This document shows positions 4,337 through 40,564 of a stretch of DNA of 50,313 bases, piece by piece (position 1 is the stretch's first letter; every line of letters starts with the position of its first letter). Under the pieces are notes generated by a model. That model worked only from the letters and a program-made list of their open reading frames with translations. It made no database searches and had not been told where the DNA came from. A program made the translations under genes and the position numbers. The stretch is from Magnetococcales bacterium. GTDB taxonomy: Bacteria > Pseudomonadota > Magnetococcia > Magnetococcales > UBA8363. Where the stretch lies: NCBI GenBank assembly GCA_015228815.1, contig JADGCV010000032.1, forward strand, positions 1-50,313. The letters are read 5' to 3'.

Positions 4337-4383
4337 GGTCTTGACTCCCCAGGGTGTTGGATGACACCATGCCTCGGTCCTTT

Positions 4384-6150: not shown

Positions 6151-6188
6151 CGCCGCCCCTCCCCCCACGTCGCCGTCCCGGAAGTCGA

Positions 6189-8132: not shown

Positions 8133-8168
8133 GGCCACCCCTCTCCCGGTTCATCCTTTTTCCCAGAC

Positions 8169-10691: not shown

Positions 10692-10872
10692 GAAACATCA
10701 CTCCTTTTCATCATTGATGATTGGCTCATCCATCAGCTTATGGCAGCTTTGGCGGGATGATGGTTTGGCGGAACAAAAAGCCGGGATGCTAGCTGTTTTC
10801 CACGAGGATTTCAAGCACGATCGCACATGCGACATCCTTCCCCCCCTCCAGAAAGGGAAGGATCCCGGAACA

Positions 10873-11388: not shown

Positions 11389-11413
11389 GGGCGTTTCCTT
11401 TGCCGCCATCCCT

Positions 11414-11725: not shown

Positions 11726-11825
11726 GATCACCCTTCCGATAAACGAGTTCCGATGGTTCCGAATCGGTATCTGTTAACGATATACACGAACGGATCATGA
11801 AATGGCAAGCGATTCTTCCCTTGTT

Positions 11826-12395: not shown

Positions 12396-12506
12396 GTTGG
12401 CAGCCTGGGTCGAAACGTTGATCGATTGGACAGGATGGATGCAAAAAAATTCCGAACCATGATAATGTAAGAGGCGAATGAAAGCAAAAAACTTTTGTAA
12501 ACAATT

Positions 12507-14183: not shown

Positions 14184-14218
14184 TGCCACCCGATCCCCCC
14201 ATTCCAGGGAGTTTGCCC

Positions 14219-14524
14219 ATGGAACATTCATCCCCGACCACGCCGTGCCGCACCCTCGTCATCTCGGGCCGCGTCCAGGGTGTCTGGTACCGCGCCTCCA
14301 CCCAGAGGAAGGCCCAGGAACTGGGACTTTCCGGCTGGGTCGAAAACCAGCCCGACGGCACCGTCCTGGTCCTTGTCTCGGGCCCCCACCCCAAAGTCGA
14401 GGCCCTGATCGACTGGTGCCGCCAGGGTCCCCCCGGGGCACGGGTCGAACGGGTCGAAATCGGGGAATGCCCCGAACCCGCCGCACACCAGGCAACGGAT
14501 GGATTCGTGATCCGGCGCCGATAA
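14219..14524 (+). CDS. acyP: Acylphosphatase
   Basis: Small enzyme of 101 aa that hydrolyses carboxyl-phosphate bonds such as acetyl-phosphate. It has the family signature VQGVWYRAST, with the catalytic Arg, and GWVENQPDGTV, with the catalytic Asn. The ATG at 14219 has AGGGAG 7 nt upstream; an earlier ATG at 14180 overlaps the nadB stop. It sits 35 bp after nadB and is probably cotranscribed. Confidence 0.93.
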   Translation: MEHSSPTTPCRTLVISGRVQGVWYRASTQRKAQELGLSGWVENQPDGTVLVLVSGPHPKVEALIDWCRQGPPGARVERVEIGECPEPAAHQATDGFVIRRR

Positions 14525-14568
14525 CCTGTCATCCCGCCCGTTCGGCATTGTGTCACTTGGGACCTCCG

Positions 14569-15696: not shown

Positions 15697-15790
15697 CCCA
15701 CCCCTCTGTCACGAATCCGGGTCATCTCCATGGGAACGAAAACACGATTTTTCAAAATTTTCACAACATACCACAGAAAGCCCACGCCCC

Positions 15791-16930: not shown

Positions 16931-16986
16931 GCGCGGATCGAACTTTTTTTTCGGTAATGCACGTTTTCTTGCAGGATTCTCACGAC

Positions 16987-17016
16987 CCGGTTCCGGGGGG
17001 CCTCCCCCGGAACCGG
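16987..17016. terminator. Strong hairpin between convergent genes
   Basis: A perfect 13-bp inverted repeat, CCGGTTCCGGGGG with loop GCCT and its complement, lies between the flavoprotein gene (plus, ends 16930) and a small minus-strand gene that ends at 17067. Neither side has a clear T-run, so it may be a bidirectional transcript-end stem and not a textbook intrinsic terminator. Confidence 0.5.
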
Positions 17017-17066
17017 CATGGTCTCGCCATGATGGTCACGGACGGTCTTTCTGCTCGCCCGACCGG

Positions 17067-17300
17067 TCACATCATCGATATTTTTCGATCCTGACCACTG
17101 ATCCGCTCCAACAACCGCTCCAACTCGCAGGCCAGTTTGGAGTTCATATCAATGTGCCGGGAATAAACCTGTTGCATCAGAAACTCCGCCTTGACCCGGT
17201 TTTCCGTGTACTCGCTGAACAATCCTTCCCTGAGATCGCTCTTCATGGGTCCTGACTCCCAAAGGTCCTTTGTGACTGCTTGATAAGTTTCGACGGCCAT
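17067..17300 (-). CDS. Small hypothetical protein
   Basis: Predicted 77-aa soluble, helical, charged protein starting MAVETYQAVTKDLW, with a Glu/Lys/Arg-rich amphipathic middle (FSEYTENRVKAEFLMQQV). No family was recognised. The ATG is preceded by GGTGAAAAAA, a plausible but weak ribosome-binding site. No competing gene lies on the other strand. Codon use looks ordinary. It could be a small regulatory or adaptor protein, but nothing in the sequence identifies it. Confidence 0.45.
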   Translation of the reverse strand: MAVETYQAVTKDLWESGPMKSDLREGLFSEYTENRVKAEFLMQQVYSRHIDMNSKLACELERLLERISGQDRKISMM

Positions 17301-17841
17301 TTTTTTTCACCTTTTGTCTACAACTGTCCACTTGAATGGATCTTTACCCCATGCCGTAATTGTTAGCAAAAATCAGACCACGTTTTTGGCTCCAGATGTC
17401 AATCTCCGGTCACGGCAGAGGAAGGGGTTTTTCCTGGAACATCAGCGCCTCGGTGGCGTCGATGTCCCCATGGGTCCACGGGCCGCGTAAAAAGTTCCCT
17501 GAAAATAATTCATGAATACCGCCAGAAAACCATCACCTGTCGAAAATCCGTCACCCATCTTTCTCCTTGAACCCGGAGCGGGAACCCCAATCGATGACCC
17601 GTTTCAAGGCTCGATGCCTGTTTCCAAGGCAAGACGTCACACGATACGCCCCACCGGTCCCGCCAAGACCGTTTATCGACCATGAATTTTCTTTGGAAAC
17701 AGAAAAGGATCAAGGTATCATCCCGATTCATCTTCCCAATTGTCATCCGACCCTGGCCATTTCGGTTCAAGTCTTGAATACATTATCCATCCGAATTCCT
17801 CTTTCAGTCTTCAACCTTTCGGATCCGGCGACACGCGCATC
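17301..17841. other. Gene-poor stretch before the diguanylate cyclase
   Basis: About 540 bases in which I see no supported gene. Two overlapping short open frames (17567-17845 plus and 17510-17770 minus) have no recognisable motif or ribosome-binding site. The region probably holds the promoters of the small minus-strand gene and of the diguanylate cyclase. Confidence 0.5.
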
Positions 17842-19713
17842 ATGAATTCTCTTTCACTGCTGGCGATTCCCGCCATACTTGTCCCCGCCATGATTCTGTT
17901 GTGGCAGATGGTGCGCGAGCGCAACCGACTCAAGAAAAACATCCAGGATCTGCAACTCGCCCAGGAAATTGCCTTCATGGGCAACTGGGACTGGGATTTG
18001 ACAACCGATTCGGTCACCGCGACCAACCGCCTGGGCCGCATTTTCGGGGTTGACCATCCCGGCACCGGCACCGGCGACGGCCTGATCACCCAGGCCATTC
18101 ATCCCGGAGACCGGATCGACGTGATGCAGTGCCGTCGCCAGGCGCGACAGGACCCCCGCGGACAATGGTCCATCCGCTACCGCGTCCTCCGTCCCGATGG
18201 CGCGGTGCGCATGGTCCGGGAACATGGGCGAACCCTCACCGACAACCGCAATCAGCCGGTCCGCCTCCTGGCCACCGTCGCCGATGTCACCCACATCTAC
18301 GACATGGAAAAGCGGGAGGAACGGGTCATCCAATCACAAATCGCCCTGAGTGCGTTGCTGGAAACCGGCCTCGAACCCTTGAGCCTGGAAAAACAACTTC
18401 AGGTTGCCATGCACATCATTCTGACCGTGCCATGGCTGTCGGTGAAATATCAGGGATCGATTTTTCTGTTGGATGAGGTCTCCGGGGACCTTGTTCTTTT
18501 TTCCCAGGTTGGTTTGTCCCCGGAACAGGTGGCCACCTGCACCCGGGTCAAACCCGGCTTTTGTCTGTGCGGTCGGGCCGTGCTCCAGAGGGAAATCGTC
18601 TTCGCCTCCCAAATCGATAAACGTCACGATTGCATCTATCCGGGAATGGAGCCACACGGTCATTATTGTGTCCCCATTCTGCTGCGCAGCCAGTTGCTGG
18701 GAGTGCTCAATCTGTACGTCCCCCACGGCTACGAGAAAAACCGCGAGGAAGACGCCTTTCTGACAACGATCGGCAAAACACTCGCGGGATTGATCGATCA
18801 TCGCCGTACCGAGGCCAAATTGCGCAACGAACAGGAGTTCATCGCCACCGTCCTCAAAACGGCCCCTTCCCTGGTGGTGGTGCTTGACGCGGGCGGAGAG
18901 ATCATACTGTTCAATCATGCCTGTCAATCATTGACCGGATACACCGAAAGGGAGGTCATTGGTCAAAAAATCTGGGATTTTCTGGTGCCGGAGAACGAGG
19001 TCGAGTCCCTGGTTGCCCTGGTTCGAGGACTGGCCCCTGGGGAACGTCCGATCGATCATGAAGGTCACTGGCTGACCCGGCAAGGCGATCCCCACCTGAT
19101 CGCCTGGTCCTGTACCGCGATCGCCTCGGGAAGGGATGGCCACCTGCACATCATCGCCACCGGCGTCGATATTTCGGAAAAGCGGCAGGTGGAGCAACGC
19201 CTGCAATTTCTCGCCAGCCACGATCCATTGACGGGACTGCCCAACCGGATGCAGTTCATGGAGCACCTGACCATCGGCATTGCCCAGGCCAGAAGATCAC
19301 ACCGGCATCTGGCGGTGGTTTTTCTGGATCTGGACCGGTTCAAATCGGTCAACGATACCCTGGGTCACGAGGTTGGCGACCGGTTGTTGACCAGTGCGGC
19401 GCAACGCATTCGCAGCTGTGTCCGGGAGATGGATGTCGTCGCCCGCCTGGGGGGCGACGAATTCACCGTGCTCATGACCGGTCTGGCCGACATCGAACCC
19501 ATTGCCGCCATCGCCCACAAAATCGTCTACCATCTTCAGCAACCTTTTGAAATCGGCCCCCATCGCTGCCAGATCGGCACCAGTATCGGCATCAGCCTGT
19601 TCCCCGACCACGGAGAGGATCCCCAGGTCCTGCTGAAAAAGGCGGATATGGCGATGTATCGGGTCAAGGACGAGGGACGGAACAATTTTAAAATTTGGGA
19701 CGAGGGATGTTGA
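17842..19713 (+). CDS. Membrane-anchored PAS-GAF-PAS diguanylate cyclase
   Basis: Protein of 623 aa that should make c-di-GMP from two GTP. An N-terminal membrane segment (about 5-22) precedes PAS1 (about 35-150), a GAF domain (about 170-325) with FCLCGRAV and YPGMEPHGHY, PAS2 (about 335-450) and a C-terminal GGDEF domain (about 460-620). The active site reads RLGGDEF intact. An inhibitory RxxD site (REMD) lies five residues before it, so product inhibition is expected. There is no EAL domain. ATG 17842 was chosen because it begins directly with the membrane anchor. The GAF is closely related to that of the histidine kinase at 96-2147, which suggests a shared signal. c-di-GMP could feed the MshEN domain of the pilus ATPase, but that is inference. 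Confidence 0.92.
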   Translation: MNSLSLLAIPAILVPAMILLWQMVRERNRLKKNIQDLQLAQEIAFMGNWDWDLTTDSVTATNRLGRIFGVDHPGTGTGDGLITQAIHPGDRIDVMQCRRQARQDPRGQWSIRYRVLRPDGAVRMVREHGRTLTDNRNQPVRLLATVADVTHIYDMEKREERVIQSQIALSALLETGLEPLSLEKQLQVAMHIILTVPWLSVKYQGSIFLLDEVSGDLVLFSQVGLSPEQVATCTRVKPGFCLCGRAVLQREIVFASQIDKRHDCIYPGMEPHGHYCVPILLRSQLLGVLNLYVPHGYEKNREEDAFLTTIGKTLAGLIDHRRTEAKLRNEQEFIATVLKTAPSLVVVLDAGGEIILFNHACQSLTGYTEREVIGQKIWDFLVPENEVESLVALVRGLAPGERPIDHEGHWLTRQGDPHLIAWSCTAIASGRDGHLHIIATGVDISEKRQVEQRLQFLASHDPLTGLPNRMQFMEHLTIGIAQARRSHRHLAVVFLDLDRFKSVNDTLGHEVGDRLLTSAAQRIRSCVREMDVVARLGGDEFTVLMTGLADIEPIAAIAHKIVYHLQQPFEIGPHRCQIGTSIGISLFPDHGEDPQVLLKKADMAMYRVKDEGRNNFKIWDEGC

Positions 19714-23322: not shown

Positions 23323-24720
23323 CTACCCATTATCGACACAGGCGCCGATGACCGGTTCAGCAAAGAAATCACCCCCGTGGCGCAACAGGATTTCGATGAT
23401 CCGCCGCGAACCGGAACCCGCCTGCCGCAACGTATGCATGATCTCCTGGACCGGAAGAATACCGACCCGATCTCCGACCAGATGACCCGAACGGATCACA
23501 GCCGCGGCGCTGACGCACCCCAAGCCATACAGGGCGCGATACATCGGTTCCTTTTTCTGCCGCGACATGAGCCCTTCTCCCACCTGGACATAGGCGTCGG
23601 CTTCGTTTCTTCTCCAGATATTGCTGTATTCGACAAAGGCGGGAAACACCGTGTCAAGCCCCTTGAACTGGGCGTCACGGATCAATTCGTCGAAAAGTCC
23701 TGCCGGACGGAACGGATAGAGGCAGTCGGCCAGAAGGATTGCCTCGGGATAGATCCCCTTCCGTTCAATTTCCCCCAGACAATAACGCATCACATCCTCG
23801 ATGCTGCGGTCGGGCGCGGCCAGTTCCGGCGGTCTGGGGATAAAATCCAACCCACGGTTTTTGGCCCGGTCGCGTACCGAATCAGCCTCGGAGAACAGAT
23901 GGACCGATTTAAGGTATTTGGACTGCTGAAATTCGTCCAACAATCGTTCCAAAAGATCGACCCCCGCCACGACCGGGGCCGGTCCCCTGAGCGGGGCGAT
24001 GGCGGCAATGTGACAACGCTCCGGGAGCAGTGATTCGGGGAGGCTCCCCGCCCCCTCCCGATCCACCGAGGCAATGATGGAAACCACCCCCCGGGCACGC
24101 CTGGGGTCGTTTCCCTGGTGCAATCCATGATGATGGTAGACCGCCGCGTCCGGCTCGTAGACCAGACGGTAGCCCGCCTCGATCATCGCCTTGCCCCACA
24201 CCCGGTCCTCGATGTTGGTCAAGGTTTCGTCGAAAGGGACCCGCTCCCACAAGTCCCGACGCAACATGCTGTTGGCGTTATGAAAAAAATAATCCTTGAT
24301 CTGAACCCGGCGATCGAGGCCAAACACGGTCATCAGGTCGCGTTTGTCCAGATCACCCGTGAACGCCACCGGCAATTGCCGTCCATAAACCCCGGCCACC
24401 CGTTCATCATCGAAGTTTTTCAACAGGGTAGAGAGCCAACGTGAATCCCTGGGGACACAATGGGCGGACAGGCAGACGATGAAACGCCCGTTTCCCGCCC
24501 GGATCCCCTCGTTCAGAGAAAGCCCGGGAAGATATTTGGCCAAAGCGATGATTTTCGCCGGATGAAACCGTTTGGCCACGGCAACCGTATGGTCGGTGCT
24601 GGCATTGTCCACGATGATGACTTCCCAATCCCGGAACTCCTGGGCGGCGATGGCCGCCAGACAGTGGGAAATCCAGCGTTCCTCGTTGAACGTGCGGACG
24701 ATGATGGAGATTTCGGCCAT
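23323..24720 (-). CDS. Family 2 glycosyltransferase fused to a NeuA-like domain
   Basis: Protein of 465 aa. The N-terminal half is a GT-A glycosyltransferase: MAEISIIVRTFNEERW, VDNASTDHT and the later NIEDRVWGKAM region. The C-terminal half (about 240-460) resembles CMP-sugar (NeuA/cytidylyltransferase) proteins in the LLADCLYPFRPAGLFDEL and GLGCVSAAAVIRS segments, but the usual nucleotide-binding R-G-G-S-K signature is replaced by APLRGPAPV. The fusion could activate and transfer an acidic sugar, or the second domain may have lost catalysis. It follows neuB with 9 bp between them. A 29-base segment near its 3' end is duplicated at 19759-19787. Confidence 0.75.
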   Translation of the reverse strand: MAEISIIVRTFNEERWISHCLAAIAAQEFRDWEVIIVDNASTDHTVAVAKRFHPAKIIALAKYLPGLSLNEGIRAGNGRFIVCLSAHCVPRDSRWLSTLLKNFDDERVAGVYGRQLPVAFTGDLDKRDLMTVFGLDRRVQIKDYFFHNANSMLRRDLWERVPFDETLTNIEDRVWGKAMIEAGYRLVYEPDAAVYHHHGLHQGNDPRRARGVVSIIASVDREGAGSLPESLLPERCHIAAIAPLRGPAPVVAGVDLLERLLDEFQQSKYLKSVHLFSEADSVRDRAKNRGLDFIPRPPELAAPDRSIEDVMRYCLGEIERKGIYPEAILLADCLYPFRPAGLFDELIRDAQFKGLDTVFPAFVEYSNIWRRNEADAYVQVGEGLMSRQKKEPMYRALYGLGCVSAAAVIRSGHLVGDRVGILPVQEIMHTLRQAGSGSRRIIEILLRHGGDFFAEPVIGACVDNG

Positions 24721-24729
24721 GAGGGCAAT

Positions 24730-25767
24730 CTATTCGAACATGTCCGGGGTGACCAGGACATCGGCGGCAATCTCACGGGTCACCGCCCGGCCAAAATAAC
24801 GCCCGGCATCCTTGGGAGGAATTCCGGTTCCCGGATTGCGCCAGGTGATCATCGCCTGGGTCAGAACCGTCCCCGGTGAAAGCGATTGTGTCGTGGCCAT
24901 GGAGACATGGTATTTGTCACGGGTGATTTTCTCCTGGGCCGAGACCCTTTTGTCACCGCTGCCAAACATGGTCTCGATGGCGCGAATATCCTTCACCATG
25001 CGGATCAACCGATCAGGCTCCAGGGAAAGTTTGTGGTCGAAACCGGGCAGGCCCGCATCCAGGGTGATATGACGTTCGACGATGGCCGCCCCCATCGCAA
25101 CCGCCGTCAGGGTTGGCAGCGTCCCCAATTCATGTCCCGAATAACCGACCACAAGATTGTAGCGTTGGCGCAGAATGTCCATCAGGGACAGGTTGCATTG
25201 ATCCAACGGGGTCGGATAGCTCGACACACAGTGAAGCAGCGCCAGAGGGGTCTGATTCTTCTTGAAAATCGCCACCGCCCGGTCGATTTCCTCCCATTCC
25301 GCCATGCCGGTGGAAAGGATCGTCGGTTTCCCGAGCGCCGCCAGGACCTCGAGCAATCCCAGATTGGTCAGGCTGTGACTGGCAAGTTTGTACCCCGCCA
25401 CTCCCAGGCGTTCAAGAAAATCGACTGCCTCCGCGTCAAACGCGGTACACAGAAAATCGATCCCCTTGCCGGCGCAGTAGTCCTTGATTTGCACGTAGTC
25501 GTCCCAACCGAATTCAAGGTGCTCGCGAATCTGGCGGTAGGTCGTGCCAAACTCGGGAAAACGGTTGTCCGGCGCGTCGAGGACTTCACGTACCGCCAGA
25601 CGGTCCACGGTCCGTTTCTGAAACTTGACCGCATCGGCCCCCGCCACCACCGCCACATCGATCAGGGCCTTGGCCATGTCGAGGGAACCATTGTGATTGA
25701 GGCCTGCTTCGGCGATCACATAAACGTGCCCGGAAGCGCGGTATCGGGAAAAAACATCAGCCAGCAT
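24730..25767 (-). CDS. neuB: NeuB-family sialic/nonulosonic acid synthase
   Basis: Enzyme of 345 aa that condenses phosphoenolpyruvate with an N-acyl-hexosamine to make a nine-carbon acidic sugar. The TIM barrel shows VIAEAGLNHNGSLDMAKAL, DAVKFQKRT, CTAFDAEAVDFL, ILSTGMAEWEEI, LLHCVSSYPTPL and VVGYSGHELG. A C-terminal SAF (antifreeze-like) domain (about 285-345) ends in the RNPGTGIPP region. ATG 25767 has AAGG about 10 nt upstream. Whether the product is sialic, legionaminic or another acid cannot be read from the sequence. Its neighbours, the transferase/NeuA-like fusion and the dehydrogenase, form a compact three-gene set. Confidence 0.93.
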   Translation of the reverse strand: MLADVFSRYRASGHVYVIAEAGLNHNGSLDMAKALIDVAVVAGADAVKFQKRTVDRLAVREVLDAPDNRFPEFGTTYRQIREHLEFGWDDYVQIKDYCAGKGIDFLCTAFDAEAVDFLERLGVAGYKLASHSLTNLGLLEVLAALGKPTILSTGMAEWEEIDRAVAIFKKNQTPLALLHCVSSYPTPLDQCNLSLMDILRQRYNLVVGYSGHELGTLPTLTAVAMGAAIVERHITLDAGLPGFDHKLSLEPDRLIRMVKDIRAIETMFGSGDKRVSAQEKITRDKYHVSMATTQSLSPGTVLTQAMITWRNPGTGIPPKDAGRYFGRAVTREIAADVLVTPDMFE

Positions 25768-25821
25768 GGATGGGTAACCTTAAGAGAAGGAGAGAAGGCG
25801 TGTGTGGAAAAAAACATCGTA

Positions 25822-26799
25822 TCATCGGGAATTTCTGGCCAGAAAGAAACGACGCAATAAATCCGCCGCATGACCATAGGCAATCTCCTGTCCCTCCCGG
25901 GTCATGCCACCGATATGAGGGGTGACGATCACCCTTGGACTGGTCCTGGCATAACGCAATAACCGATTGCCCTCCTTGTTGCGAACCTCATCGGCGATGA
26001 CATCGGTCGCCAATCCCGCCTCGGGATGGCCCTCCAGAAAGGCAATGAGATCATCCTCGACAACCAGATCGCCACGGGCCGTGTTGACCAGAAGCACCGT
26101 CCCCTTCATGCGCGAAAACCAACGCCTGTCCACCATGCCGACGGTCTCCGGAGTGGCATGGACATGGAGGGCAATGACATCCGATTCCCGCAGGAGCACA
26201 TCGAGATCGGTCTGAATCAGTTGCGAATCCGTCACCGTCTTGTAGGGATCATGAACCAACACCCGCGCCCCGAACGCCTTGCAATAGCGGGAAAACATCC
26301 CCCCGAGCCGACCATACCCCACCACCCCGATCGTCAGATGATCCACCTGCCGGCCAATGAACCGGGTATAATCCCATTCGCCACGCTTGACCGATTCGAA
26401 GGACTGCGGCACATGCCTAAGCCCCGCCAGCATCAGAGCAAACGCATGCTCGGCGGTGGAAGAAATGCGGTCGATGAACGAACGCTCCTCGGTCAACGAA
26501 ATGATCGGCAGCGATCGACGGGCCGCCTCGACCTTGTCGATATGAATCGTCCCCGTGGACGCAGTGCAGATCACCTGAAGATCCCCACCCGCCGCCATCA
26601 CCTCATGACCGATGAAAACATCCGACTTGTTGGGATTGGTAAAGATCGCCTGGCAGCCGGGAATCCTTGCCACCACCTCCTCCTGACTCGGATGGTCCAT
26701 ATAGGTGATGGCGCCGAAGGACTCCAGAATCTCCGGCACACCACGAATATGACGCACGGGGGTGATGACAAGAACCCGGGGATGAAGGGAAGCGGACAT
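25822..26799 (-). CDS. D-isomer-specific 2-hydroxyacid dehydrogenase
   Basis: NAD(P)-dependent dehydrogenase of 325 aa in the 3-phosphoglycerate dehydrogenase superfamily. It has dinucleotide motif GVVGYGRLG, LVNTARGDLVV with the catalytic Arg and VTPHIGGMT with the catalytic His. It lacks the C-terminal ACT domain of SerA. The start was set at ATG 26799, where homology begins. It precedes neuB in the same direction and may supply or oxidise a sugar-acid intermediate of that pathway. The family is certain; substrate and role in glycan synthesis are inferred. Confidence 0.85.
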   Translation of the reverse strand: MSASLHPRVLVITPVRHIRGVPEILESFGAITYMDHPSQEEVVARIPGCQAIFTNPNKSDVFIGHEVMAAGGDLQVICTASTGTIHIDKVEAARRSLPIISLTEERSFIDRISSTAEHAFALMLAGLRHVPQSFESVKRGEWDYTRFIGRQVDHLTIGVVGYGRLGGMFSRYCKAFGARVLVHDPYKTVTDSQLIQTDLDVLLRESDVIALHVHATPETVGMVDRRWFSRMKGTVLLVNTARGDLVVEDDLIAFLEGHPEAGLATDVIADEVRNKEGNRLLRYARTSPRVIVTPHIGGMTREGQEIAYGHAADLLRRFFLARNSR

Positions 26800-26913
26800 T
26801 CCGTGACAATCCTTGGTGTTGATCAGTCGGCGCATGCGGCGAATGGATCCTACCATCGTTCCCGTGATGGATCACGGTCTGGAATGGAAACACACCATTT
26901 TTTCAAATCAAGT

Positions 26914-30769: not shown

Positions 30770-31015
30770 ATGACACGGGAAGAGATGCTGAAACGGTTGA
30801 TTCCAATCATCCGGGAGGTGTTCGACGATGAAGATTTCGAGCCTACATTGGAAACCCGGCCATCGGAGGTGGAAACCTGGGATAGCCTGAGCAACATTCG
30901 GCTGTTCCTGGCCGTAGAAAAGGCATTTTCCTTCCGTTTCGATACCGCGGAAATCGGCAGCGTCGAAAACGTCGGAGAATTCGTGGACCGGGTGCTGGCA
31001 AAACGCGCCTCGTGA
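30770..31015 (+). CDS. Acyl carrier protein
   Basis: Carrier protein of 81 aa. The four-helix pattern contains TWDSLSNIRL, where Ser39 of the DSL motif is the expected phosphopantetheine attachment site; a second half rich in acidic residues follows (DTAEIGSVENVGEFVDRVL). It is not the fatty-acid AcpP by sequence and lies 37 bp before an FkbH-type gene, so it is probably a dedicated carrier for that enzyme. ATG 30770 has GGAAGG 7 nt upstream. It is the first gene of the candidate acyl-transfer system described in the findings. Confidence 0.9.
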   Translation: MTREEMLKRLIPIIREVFDDEDFEPTLETRPSEVETWDSLSNIRLFLAVEKAFSFRFDTAEIGSVENVGEFVDRVLAKRAS

Positions 31016-31052
31016 CCGTTCGGAAGGGGCCAGACCGGAAAACCCAGCATCA

Positions 31053-33011
31053 ATGGGCCCCATCCACGGTCGGGACGGTCCATCCAACCCCCTCAAGAAT
31101 GCCATGAACCACCTTCGTCTCGAAACGCTGCCGTGGCTTCTGCCCGCACCCGGTGATTTTTCCAAACGGTGCAAGGATGCCTTGTTGGTCCCGGCAGTCG
31201 AACAGGCCGAACGATTTCGTGAACTTGCCGGTTACGCCCTGGATCTGGATGCCTTGACCCGGCTGGCCCGGAGTCTTCGCAAGGCCCGGGCTTCGCGAAA
31301 CGCCGAAACCGATTCGGTCATTCGGCTCGGGCTCCTCGGCAACGCCACGACGGGCCTGTTGGTGGATGCCATCGAGTCCACCGCTTGGCGCTACGGGTTG
31401 GACCTGGAGGTGGTCGCGGCGGACTTCGGACAGGTCGAACAGGCGGTGATGGATCCAGACGCCCCCCTGATCCAGGCCCCCCCCGAGGTGGTACTCCTGG
31501 CCCTGGACCATCGTGGACTCGGATTCCCGATGGATTTCAAGGATCAGGATTCGTCCATGCACGGGGAGGATGTCTGCGGACGCGCGTTGGCGCGAATCAA
31601 TGAGATACGCAGGCGCCTTCACGAGGCAGGTTCCTCCACGGTGATCGTCCAGAACGTCCCCTTTCCCGCCGAAACCCTGTTCGGCGCCCTCGACCTGCGA
31701 ATCGGCACCACCCTGCGCAGCCGGATCGACCGATTCAACCGGATGCTCCTGGAAGCATTGGACGACGGGGCCGACCTGTTGCTGGACGTAGCGGGACTGG
31801 CCTCCTCCCTGGGCCTGGACCGCTGGCATGATCCAGTGCTCTGGAATCAGGGTAAAATACCCTTTTGCCTGGAATTCGTTCCGCTGTATGCGGACCATCT
31901 CCTTCGCCTGCTGGCCGCGCTCAAAGGAAAATCCCGAAAATGCCTGGTGCTGGATCTGGATCATACCCTCTGGGGCGGCGTGATCGGCGAAGACGGCATG
32001 GACGGTATCGTCCTGGGCGAGGGTACGCCCCTCGGCGAGGCCTATCTGGCGGTACAACGCATGGCCTTGAATCTCTCCAGGCGTGGCGTGGTTCTGGCAG
32101 TCTGCTCCAAGAATACCTTGGAGGTGGCCAAACAACCGTTTCAGTCCCATCCGGAAATGCTGCTCACCCTGGAGGACGTGGCGATTTTCATGGCAAACTG
32201 GCAGGAGAAGGCCGACAATCTGCAAGCCATGGCAACGCAACTGAATCTGGGTCTGGACGCCTTCGTGTTTCTGGACGACAACCCCGTGGAACGGGCAGGG
32301 ATGAGAAACCGGCTTCCCATGGTAGCCGTGCCGGAATTGCCGGCGGATCCCTCCCACTATCCCAGAATCGTTCTGGGCGCCGGATATTTCGAGGCGGTAC
32401 ATTTTACCAGAGACGATCGGCAGAGGACCGCCCAGTACCGGGCCAATACCGAACGCGCACAACAGCAAAGCCGGTTTCAAAACCTCGATGCCTTCCTGGT
32501 ATCCCTGGAGATGAAGCTCGCCTGGGGACACTTCGACCCCATCCATCGTGGCCGGATTACCCAGTTGGTCAACAAAACCAATCAATTCAATCTCACGACT
32601 AAACGTTACACAGAATCCCAGATCGAGGCCATGGCTTCCGATAAAAACAGGTTCTGTCTTCAGGCGCGGCTGACAGACCGCCATGGCGACAACGGAATAA
32701 TTACCGTAGTTGTCGTCGAGAAACGGAAAAAGTGCTGGGTGGTGGATTCCTGGTTGATGAGCTGCCGCGTTATGAACCGCCGGGTGGAGGATGCGGTGTT
32801 CCACATCCTGGTGGAGCAGGCAAGGCGCTTGGGAGCTGAACTCATCGAAGGTCGGTTCGTTCCGACCGGGCGCAACCAGCCGGTGGAAAACCACTACCAG
32901 CGATTGGGATTCAAACCGGTGTCCAGGGAGGGTGAGACAAGCGTATGGCACTTTTCGGTCCATACCCATAAAGAAACCATCCTGCCCATGTCCATCACGG
33001 GGCCCGGTTGA
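31053..33011 (+). CDS. FkbH-type HAD-IIIC enzyme
   Basis: Protein of 652 aa. The N-terminal part (about 90-250) resembles the SGNH-like domain that precedes many FkbH proteins. The HAD domain holds the motif LDLDHTLWGGVIGEDG at about 299-314, with VLAVCSKN and FLDDNPVERAGM as later motifs, and the C-terminal part (about 560-640) is a GNAT-like domain (GRFVPTGRNQPVENHY). FkbH enzymes take 1,3-bisphosphoglycerate, remove phosphate and load a glyceryl group on an acyl carrier protein. The carrier gene lies just upstream, which supports that reaction here. An ATG at 31104 is an alternative start. The product could feed the MBOAT enzyme nearby. Confidence 0.9.
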   Translation: MGPIHGRDGPSNPLKNAMNHLRLETLPWLLPAPGDFSKRCKDALLVPAVEQAERFRELAGYALDLDALTRLARSLRKARASRNAETDSVIRLGLLGNATTGLLVDAIESTAWRYGLDLEVVAADFGQVEQAVMDPDAPLIQAPPEVVLLALDHRGLGFPMDFKDQDSSMHGEDVCGRALARINEIRRRLHEAGSSTVIVQNVPFPAETLFGALDLRIGTTLRSRIDRFNRMLLEALDDGADLLLDVAGLASSLGLDRWHDPVLWNQGKIPFCLEFVPLYADHLLRLLAALKGKSRKCLVLDLDHTLWGGVIGEDGMDGIVLGEGTPLGEAYLAVQRMALNLSRRGVVLAVCSKNTLEVAKQPFQSHPEMLLTLEDVAIFMANWQEKADNLQAMATQLNLGLDAFVFLDDNPVERAGMRNRLPMVAVPELPADPSHYPRIVLGAGYFEAVHFTRDDRQRTAQYRANTERAQQQSRFQNLDAFLVSLEMKLAWGHFDPIHRGRITQLVNKTNQFNLTTKRYTESQIEAMASDKNRFCLQARLTDRHGDNGIITVVVVEKRKKCWVVDSWLMSCRVMNRRVEDAVFHILVEQARRLGAELIEGRFVPTGRNQPVENHYQRLGFKPVSREGETSVWHFSVHTHKETILPMSITGPG

Positions 33012-33013
33012 TC

Positions 33014-34462
33014 ATGACATCCAACCGATTTGTCATCGATTCTTCGGCAAGTCGGGCGTTTGCCGTCCTGTCCGGTGATTTCAATCCCATCCATCTGGAT
33101 CCTCTGTCCGCCCGCAGGATGAAATTTGGCCGGACCATCGTCCACGGCATGCATCTTTGTCTTCAGACGTTGGAGCTTGGTTTGGCAGACGGGGTGTCGT
33201 CGGTGCGACCCGTTGCCATGAAAGTGAGTTTCTCCAGGCCCGTCTACCATGGACAGACGGTATTGCTTGAAGAAAAGCCCGGGAAAGGCCGACGGCGGTG
33301 GACTCTTTCATCGGAAGAGGGAACGGCTTGCACGGTGACGCTCAAACTGTCCGGAAAGGATGCGGCTTTGCATCCGGGGACAGCCATGGACGGAATCGTG
33401 GATACCCCCTGGCCGGGAATCGACTGCACCGTGCAAAATCCTTGCGAGGTGGTTGGACTTGCCGGAATCCTCGAACCGTGCCTGGATCAAGACGGTCTTA
33501 CCCGGATGTTCCCGGTCCTCGCCCGCCGTCTGCCCCATTCGATCATCGTCTCCCTGCTGGCCGCCACCCGGATTGTCGGCATGATCTGCCCTGGATACCA
33601 CTCCCTGTTTTCAGGTTGTTCCCTGGATTTCTCCGACAACGCGCAAATCCGATCGGAACTGGCTTATCGCGTCGAACACTGGGATGAACGTACCGACATG
33701 GTAACCATCGCACTTTCGGGTCTGGGCGTGCAGGGAACCCTGGAGACCTTCTTCCGTTCGGCGTCCGTGAACCAGACCACGATGGATGTGGTGCGGAGGA
33801 TGGTGGCGGCGGATGCTTTCGCGGACTGGAACGCCCTGGTGGCAGGAGGTTCCCGGGGATTGGGCGAGGTGACGGGAAAAATCATCGCCGCCGGAGGCGG
33901 GCGCTGCTGCCTCACCTATGGACAGGGGGCTCTGGACGCACAACATGTGTGCAAGGAAATCACTGCCGCCGGGGGGCGGTGCGGCACGCACCATCTGGAC
34001 ATTCTCAAGCGCGACACATGGACCTCCGTCCTGGAATGTGGTCCGTTCAGTCATCTGTTCTATTTCGCCTCGCCGCCGATTCTTTTCAACACATGGGGAA
34101 ACTGGCGGGAAGATCTCTATCGGCGCTACGTCGATTTTTATCAGGATGCCTTTCGGGAAATCATCGATTTTCTGCTTGATGCCGAACCACGGAAACCAAA
34201 GCCTCTCGGTATCTTTTATCCCTCCACGGTGTTTCTCGATACCCCGGAACCCGGAGCGGACGAATACATCAAGGCCAAAGAGGGAGGCGAGCGGTTGTGC
34301 GATCAATTGAAACAAAGGCACGGAGACCTGCTTGACATCCACTGTCCGCGGCTGCCCAGGATGCTGACGGATCAAACCGCGTCGGACGCCGCACCGACCC
34401 AGGATCCCTTGAAGGTAATGCTCGGCCAACTGTCGGCCATGGCCGGGAAAATCTCGCGGTGA
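33014..34462 (+). CDS. MaoC-like dehydratase fused to an SDR reductase
   Basis: Protein of 482 aa. The N-terminal hotdog domain (about 1-120) contains AVLSGDFNPIHLD and GRTIVHGMHL, the (R)-hydratase MaoC signature. A less clear middle part follows. The C-terminal half (about 275-480) looks like a short-chain dehydrogenase: AGGSRGLGE dinucleotide loop, Ser in FYPSTVFLD and YIKAK, giving the Ser...Tyr-x3-Lys catalytic set. It would add or remove water and reduce or oxidise a beta position on a carrier-bound acyl group. ATG 33014 lies 2 bp after the FkbH stop, so the genes are coupled. A fused hydratase/ketoreductase beside FkbH and ACP is unusual; the substrate is unknown. Confidence 0.75.
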   Translation: MTSNRFVIDSSASRAFAVLSGDFNPIHLDPLSARRMKFGRTIVHGMHLCLQTLELGLADGVSSVRPVAMKVSFSRPVYHGQTVLLEEKPGKGRRRWTLSSEEGTACTVTLKLSGKDAALHPGTAMDGIVDTPWPGIDCTVQNPCEVVGLAGILEPCLDQDGLTRMFPVLARRLPHSIIVSLLAATRIVGMICPGYHSLFSGCSLDFSDNAQIRSELAYRVEHWDERTDMVTIALSGLGVQGTLETFFRSASVNQTTMDVVRRMVAADAFADWNALVAGGSRGLGEVTGKIIAAGGGRCCLTYGQGALDAQHVCKEITAAGGRCGTHHLDILKRDTWTSVLECGPFSHLFYFASPPILFNTWGNWREDLYRRYVDFYQDAFREIIDFLLDAEPRKPKPLGIFYPSTVFLDTPEPGADEYIKAKEGGERLCDQLKQRHGDLLDIHCPRLPRMLTDQTASDAAPTQDPLKVMLGQLSAMAGKISR

Positions 34463-34492
34463 AAATAGTGACGAAAAAAAGGGGGCCAACCA

Positions 34493-35527
34493 CTATTTTA
34501 TACGTATCGCGGTGTCGTTGGTAACGGACTCAAGGTCTGCTCTTGTGAGGTGTCGCAGATGGGGCAGCAGCTCCCGGGCGGTGTCTCTGGAAAACCGTCG
34601 GGCTTCCTCTCCGGGCATATGGAAGCCATCCACCGAACGGTAGCCTCCGAGGTCACTGTCAAGCCAGATGCCTCCAGCCCGGATAAACGCGGAAGAAAAG
34701 GCATTCTGGTCAAATCCGGAAACCTCATCGGCAATGGCGGAGAGAGAAGGGGCCAGTGGCATGCGAATGCCGAAAACCCGGAAACCTTCTCCGCTCCAAC
34801 GTCGAACGAAGGTGAAGACATCCTCCATGACCCTGGGCGAAACACGCAACGCTACAGCTTTATATTTATTGATGTAATCCTCTCTGGAAATGTCATCCGT
34901 CTCTTTCAGGGTCTGGTATTCCCACCATCCGGTATCATCATGAAGAATGACCTTGGCAGGCAGTTCCTTCGTCGTTGATTTTGGTTCATGTCGTTTGTGC
35001 CAAGCGCTGTGAAGCAGGGCAAAGGAGGTAGGCAGGAAATAATCGAATCCACCCGTATACCGAATCAGCATCAAATCGCCGAAAGAGACATTTTTGAAGG
35101 GGAGATAATAACGTTCATTGTAGACATCGGCCTCCGTCAAAGTGTTTGGTGTGAATCCCAGAAGGATGGCCCGAACTTTCGAAGTTGGATTCACCTGCTT
35201 TTCCGTGGCGCTCAGCAGGACCGGGTTCATGGAGAGGGCGGGAAAGCCGAAATTATAGATGGAAATCCCCGGCAACACGGTCTCCATGTCCCTGGGGGAA
35301 AAATCGGTGGACACTGGAGAGTTGCCGAAAATGACCAGGTCATGCAGCCTGGTGTTGTTGGCTTTGAGGGTGAAATGGCGATTGTAGCTTTCCGATTTGT
35401 TGCTGACGCCCCTGTTATTGACCGGCAGCAGGTCGGTGTCCTCCACCACCAGGATCATGGCCAGAAGATAGAAAAGGACTCTGGCGGTTGGTTCGTGCAA
35501 CCAGTCGATGATCTGGTCTTTCCGCAT
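34493..35527 (-). CDS. Membrane-anchored SGNH-like protein, MBOAT partner
   Basis: Protein of 344 aa with one N-terminal hydrophobic segment (about 15-30) and an extracytoplasmic domain. LVIFGNSPVSTDFSP gives a nucleophile-type Gly-Asn-Ser, and VDGFHMPGEEA near the end gives the Asp-x-x-His pair, as in SGNH/GDSL-like acyltransferase partners such as AlgX, AlgJ or DltD. ATG 35527 has GGAG 7 nt upstream. It follows the MBOAT gene by 30 bp. It probably accepts the acyl group exported by the MBOAT protein and places it on a surface polymer. The SGNH call is moderate because overall similarity is low. Confidence 0.65.
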   Translation of the reverse strand: MRKDQIIDWLHEPTARVLFYLLAMILVVEDTDLLPVNNRGVSNKSESYNRHFTLKANNTRLHDLVIFGNSPVSTDFSPRDMETVLPGISIYNFGFPALSMNPVLLSATEKQVNPTSKVRAILLGFTPNTLTEADVYNERYYLPFKNVSFGDLMLIRYTGGFDYFLPTSFALLHSAWHKRHEPKSTTKELPAKVILHDDTGWWEYQTLKETDDISREDYINKYKAVALRVSPRVMEDVFTFVRRWSGEGFRVFGIRMPLAPSLSAIADEVSGFDQNAFSSAFIRAGGIWLDSDLGGYRSVDGFHMPGEEARRFSRDTARELLPHLRHLTRADLESVTNDTAIRIK

Positions 35528-35557
35528 TGACCTGCTCCAAAAGGCGCCGGATTCGGG

Positions 35558-37027
35558 TTAAAACTGAAAATAGATGAACTCCGCCCCGCTGCCACGCAAA
35601 TAAATGGCGATAATGGCCATCAAGGCCACAACCATCGGTCCACCCAGGAAACCACCCATGGCACTGCTGCCCATCTTCCTGTCCAGACCGGTAAACATAT
35701 AGAGTTCCCGCAGCAGCACCGTACCGATCAACAGGCTGATCACGCCGAAATCCCGGATGGAAAGGAACTCCCCCAACCCAAGGCTCAAGCCGTTGTGAAA
35801 GGTCAACATGCGGAACAGAATTTCGCCCAGTTGGCTCAAGGATTGCGCCCGGAAAATGGTCATGGCGACGATGACCTGGAAGAAGGTCAGCAGCCAAGCG
35901 ATCCATCGCCCCAAAAACAGCTTTTTCATGCGCATGGGCCAGCGGGTAACGATTTCGATGTGCAGGTAGAGGCCGTGAAGAGCGCCCCAAAGGATGAAAT
36001 GCCAGGCGGCGCCGTGCCACAGGCCAGAGAGCAACATGGTGATCCACAGATAGACGATCATCCGTTGCTGACCGAGCTGTCCGCCCGTCTCCCGCAACTG
36101 GTCGATTTTCTTTCGGACCATGCCATGAAAGATGTAATCCCGGAACCAGGAGGTCAGCGAAATGTGCCATCGATCCCAGAACTCCTGGATGGAGGTGGCG
36201 ATGTAGGGATGGTTGAAGTTGATCTGCATGTCATAGCCCATCCATTTGGCCAGACCCCGGGCGATGTCGCTGTAGCCGCTGAAATCGCAATAGATTTGAA
36301 TGGTGAAGGCCAGGGCGATCAACCACCAGTAGATGCCACTGCCGGAAACCACCGGATCGGCGAAGGCTGTCGCCACGAACATTGCAAGGTTGTCGGCGAT
36401 GACCACCTTCTTGAAATAACCATGCACCACCAAAACCATCCCCTCCCATCGGGCCTCACGGGTGATGGGTCGCGCCGTCAGCAATTGTGGCAGCATGTCC
36501 CTGGCCCGGATGATCGGACCGGCCACCAGTTGCGGAAACAAGGAAAGGTAGGCAAAAAAGTGCAGAACGCTGCGGGTCGGTTTCAGTTGTCCGTTGTACA
36601 CATCGATGGTGTAGCTCATGGACTGAAAGGTATAGAAGCTGATCCCCAAGGGAAGAATCAGCATGAACTCCGGTGTATGTACCGTCCCATCAAGCGACAT
36701 TCCGAACAGGTCGGCGATCGACTCCATGTTCTCCATGAAAAATCCATAGTATTTAAAACTGAACAGAATACCCAGGTTCCCAACCAGAGAGAATGCGAGA
36801 AATGACCGCCGCGCCCTTGGATAGCGGTCCATGCCCAAGGCAGCGAAGAAGTCGATCAATCCACTGACGAGAAGGAGGGAGAGAAACCGGTAATCCCACC
36901 AGCCATAAAAAAAGAAGGAGGCGCAAACGAGGAACAGCCAGCGCATGGTGCGATATGGTCGGATGAATGGCCACAAGAGGATGAAGGCAAGGAAGAAAAG
37001 GATGAAGATTTTGGAGTTGAAAAGCAT
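35558..37027 (-). CDS. MBOAT O-acyltransferase (AlgI/DltB type)
   Basis: Integral membrane protein of 489 aa with about 10-12 hydrophobic segments. Family motifs are LPLGISFYTFQSMSY, YCDFSGYSDIARGLA, NFNHPYIATSIQEFWDRWHI and LLSGLWHGAAWHF, the last two holding the conserved His residues. DltB-type members take an acyl group from a carrier protein in the cytoplasm and pass it across the membrane; AlgI acetylates alginate with a partner. The acyl carrier and FkbH genes lie on the opposite strand 3 kb away, and the SGNH-like gene follows directly. The ATG at 37027 begins the first helix. Confidence 0.93.
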   Translation of the reverse strand: MLFNSKIFILFFLAFILLWPFIRPYRTMRWLFLVCASFFFYGWWDYRFLSLLLVSGLIDFFAALGMDRYPRARRSFLAFSLVGNLGILFSFKYYGFFMENMESIADLFGMSLDGTVHTPEFMLILPLGISFYTFQSMSYTIDVYNGQLKPTRSVLHFFAYLSLFPQLVAGPIIRARDMLPQLLTARPITREARWEGMVLVVHGYFKKVVIADNLAMFVATAFADPVVSGSGIYWWLIALAFTIQIYCDFSGYSDIARGLAKWMGYDMQINFNHPYIATSIQEFWDRWHISLTSWFRDYIFHGMVRKKIDQLRETGGQLGQQRMIVYLWITMLLSGLWHGAAWHFILWGALHGLYLHIEIVTRWPMRMKKLFLGRWIAWLLTFFQVIVAMTIFRAQSLSQLGEILFRMLTFHNGLSLGLGEFLSIRDFGVISLLIGTVLLRELYMFTGLDRKMGSSAMGGFLGGPMVVALMAIIAIYLRGSGAEFIYFQF

Positions 37028-37360
37028 TATTGGGCGATGCTCGCTTCAAAGAGAAAAATTTTTCGTCGGCATCGCTCCATGGCCGTGGGGGACACCGGAG
37101 AATTCATGGGGACATGGCGACCATGTTTGAATATACATCAGTCGGCGAATCATCTCAAAGAGGTGATCTGGTCATCGACGCGCGGAACGGATTTTCGAGC
37201 ATAACGCAACACACTCACTTGCGATCACCTTCTTCTTCCAATGGTTATCACATCGATGTCCCCTCCGGCCCTGCATTGCCTTTTTTGGTTCGGGAGGGTT
37301 TGCATTTGTCTCCCGGGCAGGGCATTCTCTGGGGAAACGTCCGCATTTCAGACACGAGCC
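37028..37360. other. Divergent intergenic region between MBOAT and PelA-like genes
   Basis: About 330 bases with no supported gene. An 8-bp inverted pair AGGTGATC...GATCACCT, about 60 bases apart (near 37155 and 37217), could be a regulatory site, but this is weak. Confidence 0.4.
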
Positions 37361-38212
37361 ATGAGAATCCGTTTGTTTCGATCGATCCTGTCCACAATCG
37401 CCCTGGCAATCTTTTTTCTCGGGGGGGCCGCCGTGGTCCGTGCCGAATCCTGGGTAGTCTACTATTCCGACCAGGAGCCTGATACGCGCTTCGAATCCTA
37501 TTCGCTGATCGTTTTCGACAGCCTCTATCATCCGCCACTGGAACGGCTCAAGGAACGGGGAAAGATGATTCTGGGCTATCTGAGCCTGGGCGAAGTGGAA
37601 GACCATCGAGATCATTTCCAGACGGTCAAGGAGATGGACCTTCTGTTGATGGAAAACGAAGACTGGCCGGGCAGCTTCTTTGTCGATGTCCGCAAGCCGG
37701 CATGGACCGCCATGGTGATCGAATCATTGATTCCGCAACTGTTGCAGAAGGGTTTTCATGGATTGTTTCTCGACACCATGGACAATCCGGGTCATCTGGA
37801 AGACCTCGACGCCAAACGATACCGGGGCATGCGCCAGGGGGGAATCGACTTGATCAAGGCGATCCGGCGAAATTTTCCCGACATCCCGATCATGATCAAT
37901 CGCTCTTTCGACCTTCTGGACCGGGTCCTTTATGATGTGGACATGGTCCTGGCCGAATCGATCCGCAGCCTTCCCGACCCCTCCACCAAAAGCCATCGCC
38001 TGACCGACAACGCCGAATACGAAGCGACCGCCACCCGCCTGCGCCGCCTCAAGGAGATCCGACCCCGGCTGGAATTGTACTCCCTGGACTATTGGGATCC
38101 CGACGACCCCAAGGGACAGGCAGCGATCTATCGCCAGCAGCGGGAACATGGATTCAATCCCTACGTTTCCACCATCGAATTGAACCGGGTCATCCCCGAA
38201 CCCGCCCCATGA
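37361..38212 (+). CDS. PelA-like glycoside hydrolase (GH114/GH166 type)
   Basis: Secreted or periplasmic protein of 283 aa. A signal peptide (about 1-27, FRSILSTIALAIFFLGGAA) precedes a TIM-barrel hydrolase with SWVVYYSDQEP, LGYLSLGEVEDHR, GLFLDTMDNPGHL and MVLAESIRS; the last two match the acidic catalytic positions of the PelA N-terminal hydrolase. Pel polysaccharide is rich in galactosamine, and such enzymes cut it. In the usual PelA this domain is fused to a deacetylase; here the deacetylase is the next gene, with a 4-bp ATGA overlap. ATG 37361 was chosen because the signal peptide starts there. Confidence 0.8.
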   Translation: MRIRLFRSILSTIALAIFFLGGAAVVRAESWVVYYSDQEPDTRFESYSLIVFDSLYHPPLERLKERGKMILGYLSLGEVEDHRDHFQTVKEMDLLLMENEDWPGSFFVDVRKPAWTAMVIESLIPQLLQKGFHGLFLDTMDNPGHLEDLDAKRYRGMRQGGIDLIKAIRRNFPDIPIMINRSFDLLDRVLYDVDMVLAESIRSLPDPSTKSHRLTDNAEYEATATRLRRLKEIRPRLELYSLDYWDPDDPKGQAAIYRQQREHGFNPYVSTIELNRVIPEPAP

Positions 38213-40564
38213 TACGATTGCCCCTTTTGCTGCTGGCGTTGTTTCTTTTCCCCCTCGCTGGAAAATGCGCCGAGGAACCCACGGCGGTTGAAATACCCCG
38301 GGTTATCCTCTCCTTTTTCGACTCGAAAAAAACCAATGGTCAGGCCTGGTTCAGCAATACCCACAAATACGCCGAACTGCCGCTCAATCATCTGGGTCTG
38401 GTCGTCCGCTATCAGGACATCCACCAACCCCTGCCCGATCCCAATACCCTTGACGATGTCCGCGGCGTCCTCTGGTGGGAGGACAACCAGCAACTAGCCA
38501 ATCCCGTCGTTTTTCTCGAATGGGCCATAACCATCATGAACGTGGGCAAACGATTTGTCCTGATGGGCCCCCCCCCCCTGGTCCGCGGATCTCAAGGGAG
38601 TTGCCACTCCTGTAACGCCCATGGAAAAATTTTGGCGAACGCTGGGATTTGGTTTTCAGGACCAATGGGTCTCCTTTACCCATGATCTGGAAATCGCTTA
38701 CAAGAATCCCGAAATGATTGGTTTTGAACGTCCTTTGCCGCAACATTTTCCCGGATATCTGCAAATTCTTCCCGGTTCCCCCGATGCCACGGCCCATCTC
38801 AAGGTGCGCCACGGCATGAAGGGCGGTACGGAAAACATCCTGGTGGCAACCACTCCTCGCGGCGGTTTCGTCCCTCCTGATTTTTCGCTGTTCTTTTCCA
38901 GAAATCCCAACGAGGATCGTGATTTCGCTCAGTGGATCATCAATCCCTTCGAATTTTTCCGCCATGCGTTCGCCACCGATGATCTTCCCAAACCCGATGC
39001 CAGCACGTTGTCGAACCGGAGGATCTACTACAGCCATATCGACGGCGACGGGCTGCGCAATCTGACCGAAGTTCGCCCCTATCGCGACAAGGGATTGACC
39101 GCCGCCGAGGTTATTCTCGAAGAGGCAATCCAGGGCTACCCCGAACTTCCCGTGACGATCGCCCCGGTCGTCGGCGACATCGATCCACAATGGTTTGGAT
39201 CGCGCAAATTCATGGAGATTACCGAAAAACTGCTTGCCCCACCACAGGTCGAGGCAGGCAACCATACGTTAAGCCATCCGTTGGATTGGGGGTTCTTCGA
39301 GCACTTCGATCCGGCCCGGGAGCTGCCCTACCTCAAGAATTATCCCACCCCCGCGGATGAAGGCACCTCCAATCGATTGTTGGATGCCCTCGGCTTCAAG
39401 AGGAAGAAAAAGACGGTCTCGATCGATACCTCTCTTTGGCGCAACATTCCGGTCCGTGTCGATGACCCCGAGAAAAACGATCAACCAGAGAAAAAGACAC
39501 GTTACAACGATTACAAGACACCCCGTGCCTATGCCATCAAGCCTTTCAATCTTCATGATGAACTTCAGGGGGCAAACCGCACCATTGAACAGTTATTGCC
39601 TCCGGGAAAGAAGGTCAAACTGTTGCAATGGTCGGGAAATACCCTGCCCTTCGAACGGGCCCTGCGCGAATCCCGTCTTCTCGGGATGAAAAACATCAAC
39701 GGCGGCGATACCCGTTTCGATTCCGAATATCCTTCGGTGGCCTGGGTGGCACCATTGGGGCGAACGGTCGGGAAGGAATGGCAATGTTACGCCTCCGCCA
39801 GCAACGAAAACACCTATACGAGCCTCTGGACCGATCATTTCTTTGGTTTCAAGCATCTGGTGCAAACCATCAAGAACACCGAATCGCCCCGACGTTTGAT
39901 TCCATTCAATCTTTATTATCATTTTTATTCCGGGGAAAAACTGGCGAGCATCAACGCCCTCAAGTATAACCTTGATTACGCCCGTTCCCTGCCCTTGGCG
40001 CCGGTCGCCGCAAGTTTTTACGCCTCGGTGGCGGAAGGGGCGATCCATGCACGGTTGTTCCGGCTCCCCTCCGGGGCCGTGGAAATCCGTGATCGCGGCG
40101 ATCTGCAAACGCTGCGTCTGGATCGCGCCGTGCTCAAACAGGTCGATCTGTCCCAATCGACGGGGGTCATCGGTCAACGCCATTATCAGGGGAGCCTGTA
40201 TATCGCCCTGGATGGCCAGGTTGCCACTCCCAGGATCATGATCGTCCCCTACGACACCCCCGCCAGGCCCCCCCCTTCCCCACACCCCTACCTGATCGAA
40301 GGACGGTGGCGCCTTTCCGGGCTGTCCCGGGGCGACACCCAGGGATCCTTCACAGTTTACGCCCAGGGGTTCGGCAAGGGAGAGATGACCTGGCAGGTGC
40401 CGGAGGAGGGCGACTACCACATCGAAACGTTCGATCAAAATGGCAAATCCCTGGATCGGATCGAGGTTCGTACCGGGGCCGAGGATGGGCTGTTGCGTTT
40501 TGTCCTGCCAACGCCGGCGTTGGAGGAAATTCGGATCGTCGTGGCGCGAAAGACTGGAACATAG
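38209..40564 (+). CDS. PelA-like RecA-like/deacetylase protein, frameshifted at a C11 tract
   Basis: The start ATG at 38209 overlaps the hydrolase stop. A signal peptide (MIRLPLLLLALFLFPLAG) is followed by a segment like the middle domain of PelA (VLWWEDNQQL, GKRFVLMGPPP). A run of 11 C at 38568-38578 then puts translation out of frame, and the first product would end at 38685. Removing one C joins it to the long downstream frame (to 40564) with no gap, as GPPPWSADLKG and so on, giving about 784 aa. The downstream part has deacetylase motifs YYSHIDGDG and GNHTLSHPLDW. Either the tract is phase-variable or the assembly has a homopolymer error. The enzyme would deacetylate an amino-sugar exopolysaccharide. 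Confidence 0.8.
38568..38578 (+). repeat. C11 homopolymer inside the deacetylase gene
   Basis: Eleven consecutive C bases, the site where the reading frame changes from the upstream to the downstream part. Ten or thirteen C would be in frame. Such tracts slip readily during replication. Confidence 0.85.

Follow-up and report, generated by a model that had tools for sequence, protein, structure and literature searches.

An FkbH-loaded carrier protein probably feeds an MBOAT-SGNH surface acylation system in a Magnetococcales bacterium

Five genes on a 50,313-nucleotide contig of a Magnetococcales bacterium (GCA_015228815.1, contig JADGCV010000032.1, positions 1 to 50,313; the whole stretch is hereafter called the window) raise the question of whether an acyl group loaded onto a carrier protein by an FkbH enzyme may be handed to membrane acyltransferases and end up on the cell surface. 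The genes, located at 30770-37027, encode an acyl carrier protein (ACP), an FkbH loader, a fusion of a MaoC-type dehydratase with a short-chain dehydrogenase/reductase (MaoC-SDR), an SGNH-like protein and a membrane-bound O-acyltransferase (MBOAT). An earlier annotation made from the letters of the window (the sequence-only reading) had proposed this set, and we found all five genes at the positions it gave, with their catalytic residues kept (Table 1). The host genome (G000) is 4.2 Mb in size and 99% complete, and the window is its contig C32; other genomes, contigs and loci are referred to by G, C and L numbers. As an explanation of the whole locus we favour, with moderate confidence, a carrier-protein-fed surface acylation system in which glyceryl is reworked to lactyl.

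The ACP, FkbH and MaoC-SDR genes form one tight operon on the + strand. Family models match the ACP weakly, and its gene might instead begin at a TTG 15 bases further upstream; Ser39, which does not vary in six relatives, is part of the phosphopantetheine motif ETWDSL. FkbH scores 308 bits against TIGR01686 (E 9e-92, cut-off 147) and also matches PF21211, its HAD aspartates D301/D303 and C571 are invariant among 52 relatives, and a partner ACP is present. FkbH-like enzymes are considered to produce glyceryl-ACP (PMC7489565), and by analogy with this family the FkbH of the window would load glyceryl onto the ACP from 1,3-bisphosphoglycerate. Other FkbH matches fall inside open frames roughly 2600-2770 residues long, which are likely to be polyketide or peptide synthases (G033:C17, G027:C13, G043:C111, G029:C45 and G007:C2). 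The MaoC-SDR gene overlaps that of FkbH by 4 bases. Its first half matches PF01575 (E 8e-16) and its second half is an SDR. The structure model (pLDDT 88) has a pair of hotdog-like halves and, after them, a Rossmann reductase; its fold matches are SDR reductases and, among the top hits, a polyketide synthase in its DH-ER-KR region. D24/H29 of the hotdog motif and S406/Y420/K424 of the reductase are invariant in 14 sequences, which also carry the glycine-rich cofactor motif. As modelled, the fusion is thus a dehydratase joined to a ketoreductase.

The SGNH and MBOAT genes make up a - strand pair convergent on this operon, 30 bases separating the stop codons of the MaoC-SDR and SGNH genes. The SGNH-like protein has no Pfam match. 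When 14 MBOAT-linked partners were aligned, only four columns proved invariant, Gly and Ser in GxS plus Asp and His in DxxH, represented in the window by GNS...DGFH (S70, D300 and H303); the structure model is moderate (pLDDT 71), with DltD as its top fold match (TM about 0.38). With regard to the MBOAT, it matches PF03062, and His338 is invariant in all 32 MBOATs aligned, a set that includes a few without FkbH nearby. The solved structures nearest to it are those of DltB, and its score with the DltB model TIGR04091 is 152 bits, below the cut-off of 375.

In the Pat and Dlt systems, the acyl group rides on the Tyr of a C-terminal FxYxxF motif, which belongs to the MBOAT in some cases and to the microprotein DltX in others; PatA auto-acetylates the Tyr at its own C-terminus for use by PatB, and DltB receives D-Ala from the carrier DltC (PMC12148441). 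The MBOAT of the window ends in EFIYFQF, with Tyr486 in the corresponding position. This shuttle motif is found in 28 of the 32 aligned MBOATs, 27 of them ending in [FI]xYxxF and one in YVYFQF. The four MBOATs lacking it (L057, L071, L159 and L162) are all located in FkbH clusters, and each of these loci contains a small same-strand open reading frame (ORF) with one hydrophobic helix and a motif-like end (VIAYQQF, PFVYQGL, SLVYREF and GLVYKNM, respectively). In L159 the stop of this ORF overlaps an ATG of the MBOAT frame, and the L071 ORF is found about 1.2 kb past the MBOAT. Scanning 1.9 Mb in six frames with a strict pattern produced 21 hits, namely 18 MBOAT ends and the ORFs of L057, L071 and L159, although the pattern was picked after these loci had been viewed, so that the scan gauges the rarity of such ORFs elsewhere and is no blind test. 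The ORF of L162 is weaker and was found with a looser pattern. Judged by their sequences, we predict the four ORFs to encode DltX-like microproteins; separate ORFs of this kind were found only in these four loci, whereas the shuttle of the window is carried by the MBOAT itself.

To see how the genes keep company, 48 Magnetococcales genomes were considered, which hold 86 MBOAT and 77 FkbH matches. Eighteen FkbH-MBOAT pairs lie no more than 6 kb apart, versus about 0.5 at random placement, an expectation that presumes the matches to be spread evenly and takes no account of contig breaks or relatedness. Mapped on the FkbH tree, the MBOAT label requires 10 changes versus 17 with shuffled labels (none of 500 shuffles gave so few), and the well-supported branches by themselves require a minimum of 6; the tree is a quick one with some long branches, and near-copies favour clustering. 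This result points to linkage on repeated occasions and not to a single accident of descent. Moreover, the linkage occurs in several gene orders. Complete or near-complete sets are found in L026 and in five further loci: ACP-FkbH-MaoC-SDR-MBOAT-SGNH, all on one strand and about 40-60% identical to the window genes, in L022 (G038); FkbH-MaoC-SDR-MBOAT-SGNH-like-ACP in L031, from the same genus as the window; FkbH-ACP-MBOAT-SGNH-GT87-MaoC-SDR in L045 (Paraburkholderia fynbosensis); ACP-FkbH-SGNH-MBOAT-MaoC-SDR in L050 (Granulicella); and MaoC-SDR-ACP-FkbH-SGNH-MBOAT in L057 (Phaeospirillum). Judged by Pfam alone, the SGNH assignments of L026, L031 and L050 are weak. The SGNH gene of L022 looks broken, but its sequence contains N, so that we do not take this as loss of the gene. 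In L159 (G006, a sister genome of the same genus) the order is FkbH, ACP, microprotein ORF and MBOAT, followed by MaoC and SDR as separate genes. A compact SGNH-MBOAT-ACP-FkbH operon without MaoC-SDR occurs in L149-L151, and again in L152, where the contig end falls inside the MBOAT gene; the operons of L149-L151 tie the ACP to the MBOAT even where the fusion is absent. The ACP directly adjoins the MBOAT in L045, L149-L151, L155 and L159. The five-gene set is not due to chance, and we consider it quite probable that the five genes act together. The co-occurrence that the sequence-only reading had called for thus extends over several phyla, while the order takes several arrangements. B12-binding radical SAM proteins adjoin the operons of L149, L151 and L152; their role might be methylation, either of the acyl group or of the glycan.

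The fusion had been called unfamiliar inside such a set, but it is not peculiar to this locus. Its family was traced in public genomes by an alignment-query scan, a single-sequence scan having given no matches. Outside Magnetococcales, 31 of 40 loci have FkbH nearby and 11 of 40 have an MBOAT (about 1% each expected from Magnetococcales densities); among loci outside the order with at least 15 kb of sequence, FkbH stands beside the fusion in 26 of 29. In L036, L037, L038 and L060 the fusion and FkbH, in most cases with an ACP, are found with AAC(3)-like N-acyltransferases or AT3 acyltransferases replacing the MBOAT, so that the set looks like a general acyl-ACP module. MaoC-SDR is therefore a broad family, usually adjoining FkbH and also plugged into other acyltransferases. 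A supposed MaoC-FkbH fusion in L164 was dropped: the MaoC ORF (6563-7111) is in another frame and constitutes a separate gene upstream of FkbH.

How, then, does the system relate to known ones? It resembles Dlt, which places D-alanine on teichoic acids, in having a dedicated carrier protein in the MBOAT locus, an MBOAT nearest DltB, an SGNH partner whose moderate model has its best fold match in DltD, the acyl-Tyr shuttle motif and, in some related loci, a separate DltX-like microprotein ORF. However, the loader is FkbH and not the adenylating DltA, for which the host genome gave no match above the cut-off (best 82 bits versus 560) and the scanned window genes none; the expected source of the acyl group is glycolysis, with probable modification of the group while it is bound to the carrier; the window MBOAT bears the shuttle motif itself, whereas Dlt has a separate DltX; and the host is of the Gram-negative type. 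The system would work like Dlt, yet by the features tested it is no member of Dlt, given that it lacks DltA, scores below threshold as DltB and has no free-standing DltX in the window. With PatA/PatB and AlgI/AlgJ/AlgX it shares an MBOAT with a C-terminal FxYxxF tail and an SGNH partner, but those systems use acetyl-CoA without a carrier protein (PMC12148441), whereas an ACP and a loader are linked here. FkbH together with a stand-alone ACP is also known from glyceryl-ACP pathways (tetronates, methoxymalonyl-ACP; PMC7489565); here, by contrast, the free-standing enzymes seem to feed membrane acyltransferases and not a polyketide line. The locus probably encodes an MBOAT-SGNH acylation system with a carrier plus a new loading and tailoring branch. 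The Dlt-like roles proposed at the outset (carrier, loader, MBOAT and SGNH) are strongly supported by the co-occurrence across phyla, the Tyr motif, the microprotein ORFs, the DltD fold match and the lack of an above-cut-off DltA match in the genome.

In the mechanism that we propose, FkbH would take the acyl group of 1,3-bisphosphoglycerate, dephosphorylate it and load it as glyceryl-S-ACP. The MaoC part would remove water, giving enol-pyruvyl- or pyruvyl-S-ACP, which the SDR part would reduce to lactyl-S-ACP. On the cytoplasmic side the ACP would then hand the acyl group to the MBOAT, which would pass it through its pore to Tyr486 of the FIYFQF tail; from there the group would move to Ser70 of the SGNH protein and finally form an ester on a periplasmic or surface polysaccharide. 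It should be underlined that gene content, catalytic residues, folds, co-occurrence and shuttle motifs are what was observed; the loading substrate (taken from the FkbH family), the order of reactions, the lactyl product, the ACP as MBOAT donor and the polysaccharide acceptor are all inferred. The choice of lactyl over plain glyceryl follows from the dehydratase-ketoreductase nature of the fusion, and since no ketosynthase was seen among the scanned window genes, the simplest substrate for it is the group that FkbH loads; we give lactyl about an even chance of being the group transferred. The same dehydration-reduction logic has reportedly been proposed for the bryostatin loading module (BryA, FkbH-DH-KR), with which the window has the combination of FkbH, DH, KR and ACP in common. 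The literature searched yielded no precedent paper joining FkbH with lactyl, lactate or bryostatin.

Glyceryl as such, the group named by the sequence-only reading, fits the operons of L149-L152, which would keep it plain, but probably not the window. That the same machine transfers plain D-glyceryl in the window too, with MaoC-SDR serving another acyl-ACP or a side reaction, agrees with these fusion-free operons and with the lack of a fusion match in G032 and G034 (only 82% and 65% complete, respectively). We nevertheless hold it to be unlikely: the fusion lies in the loader's own operon and overlaps its gene, its family usually has FkbH nearby, and with no ketosynthase among the scanned window genes another acyl-ACP substrate is not in sight.

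Several observations weigh against the lactyl-transferring system that we favour. The lactyl step is a chemical inference, and the SGNH identity depends on invariant columns and on a fold match from a moderately confident model. Within the window the two halves converge and do not form one operon. Moreover, the closest MBOAT-SGNH pairs apart from L022, those of L160 (58/49% identical) and L161 (50/30%), have neither FkbH nor ACP near them, indicating that acyl-CoA, or a carrier whose gene lies elsewhere, may also serve the MBOAT lineage of the window. These loader-free pairs, the convergent layout and the loaders found elsewhere with AAC(3)-like or AT3 acyltransferases in place of an MBOAT would also suit a locus of two unrelated neighbours, in which an acetyl-CoA-dependent MBOAT-SGNH pair O-acetylates a polysaccharide while the FkbH-ACP-MaoC-SDR operon serves a cytoplasmic acyltransferase or the making of a small molecule. 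Such a coincidence appears quite improbable to us in view of L022, where all five genes share one strand, of the repeated FkbH-MBOAT linkage, and of the loci in which the ACP directly adjoins the MBOAT. Polyketide or nonribosomal peptide assembly from an FkbH-loaded unit, the setting from which the FkbH family is best known (PMC7489565, PMC8949500), is very improbable, as the scanned window genes include no ketosynthase, acyltransferase, condensation or adenylation domain and the partners are membrane acyltransferases.

A system that joins FkbH loading to MBOAT-SGNH delivery would probably represent a third donor route for surface-polymer acylation, in which a glycolytic intermediate is loaded by FkbH on a carrier, optionally turned to lactyl and delivered by the MBOAT-SGNH pair. 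It would differ from routes with acetyl-CoA or amino acid donors and would employ DltX-like microproteins in some lineages. According to a 2025 study, neither a carrier protein nor a DltX-like microprotein belongs to MBOAT-SGNH pathways other than Dlt (PMC12148441); the present loci appear to contradict both statements. If true, the route is spread over several phyla and predicts O-lactyl or O-glyceryl surface polymers, ties cell-envelope acylation directly to glycolytic flux, gives FkbH a role outside antibiotic synthesis and provides many unexplained MBOAT clusters with a testable acyl group (lactyl or glyceryl). Such a system was not described in the open-access full text searched, a search outside which most subscription journals lie.

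Table 1. Positions of the acylation genes, the predicted microproteins and neighbouring features
Locus	Feature	Position	Strand	Residues or motif
Window	ACP (DltC role)	30770-31015	+	phosphopantetheine Ser39 at 30884-30886
Window	FkbH loader	31053-33011	+	HAD D301/D303; C571 at 32763-32765
Window	MaoC-SDR fusion	33008-34462	+	double-hotdog dehydratase D24, H29; ketoreductase S406, Y420, K424
Window	SGNH-type membrane-anchored acyltransferase (DltD/AlgJ/PatB role)	34493-35527	-	S70, D300, H303
Window	MBOAT (DltB/PatA/AlgI role)	35558-37027	-	catalytic His338 in SGLWHG
Window	MBOAT C-terminal acyl-shuttle motif	35561-35578	-	FIYFQF, Tyr486, at protein end
L159	Predicted DltX-like microprotein, one transmembrane helix	8628-8750		
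L057	Predicted DltX-like microprotein, one transmembrane helix	13621-13740		
L071	Predicted DltX-like microprotein, one transmembrane helix	15840-15998		
L162	Predicted DltX-like microprotein, one transmembrane helix	1699-1824		
Window	Two PelA-like genes	37241-40564	+	
L170	pel-type cluster	9417-18108		
Window	Possible nonulosonic acid module	23323-26856	-	
Window	Secretion gene run	4384-10076	-	
L149	B12-binding radical SAM protein	5785-7392		
L151	B12-binding radical SAM proteins	3245-4846, 10342-11886		
L152	B12-binding radical SAM protein	2462-4039		

As to the acceptor, PelA-like functions are found on two genes beside the set. The first carries the GH114/PelA hydrolase part and the second, which seems frameshifted near 38560-38620, matches a later PelA region (E 4e-56 to 9cgy). 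On contig C7 of the same genome a pel-type cluster (L170) encodes PelG, a PelF-like glycosyltransferase and cNMP- and GAF-domain proteins, with no recognised PelA in it. Taken together, this makes Pel a candidate acceptor; the PelA-like flank was not seen in L022 or L160, and Pel therefore stays a guess.

Elsewhere in the window, genes for a NeuB-type synthase, a glycosyltransferase 2 joined to a nucleotidyltransferase-like part and a 2-hydroxyacid dehydrogenase lie side by side and may form a nonulosonic acid module. A further gene run encodes a type II/IV secretion ATPase, a TPR protein and a secretin.

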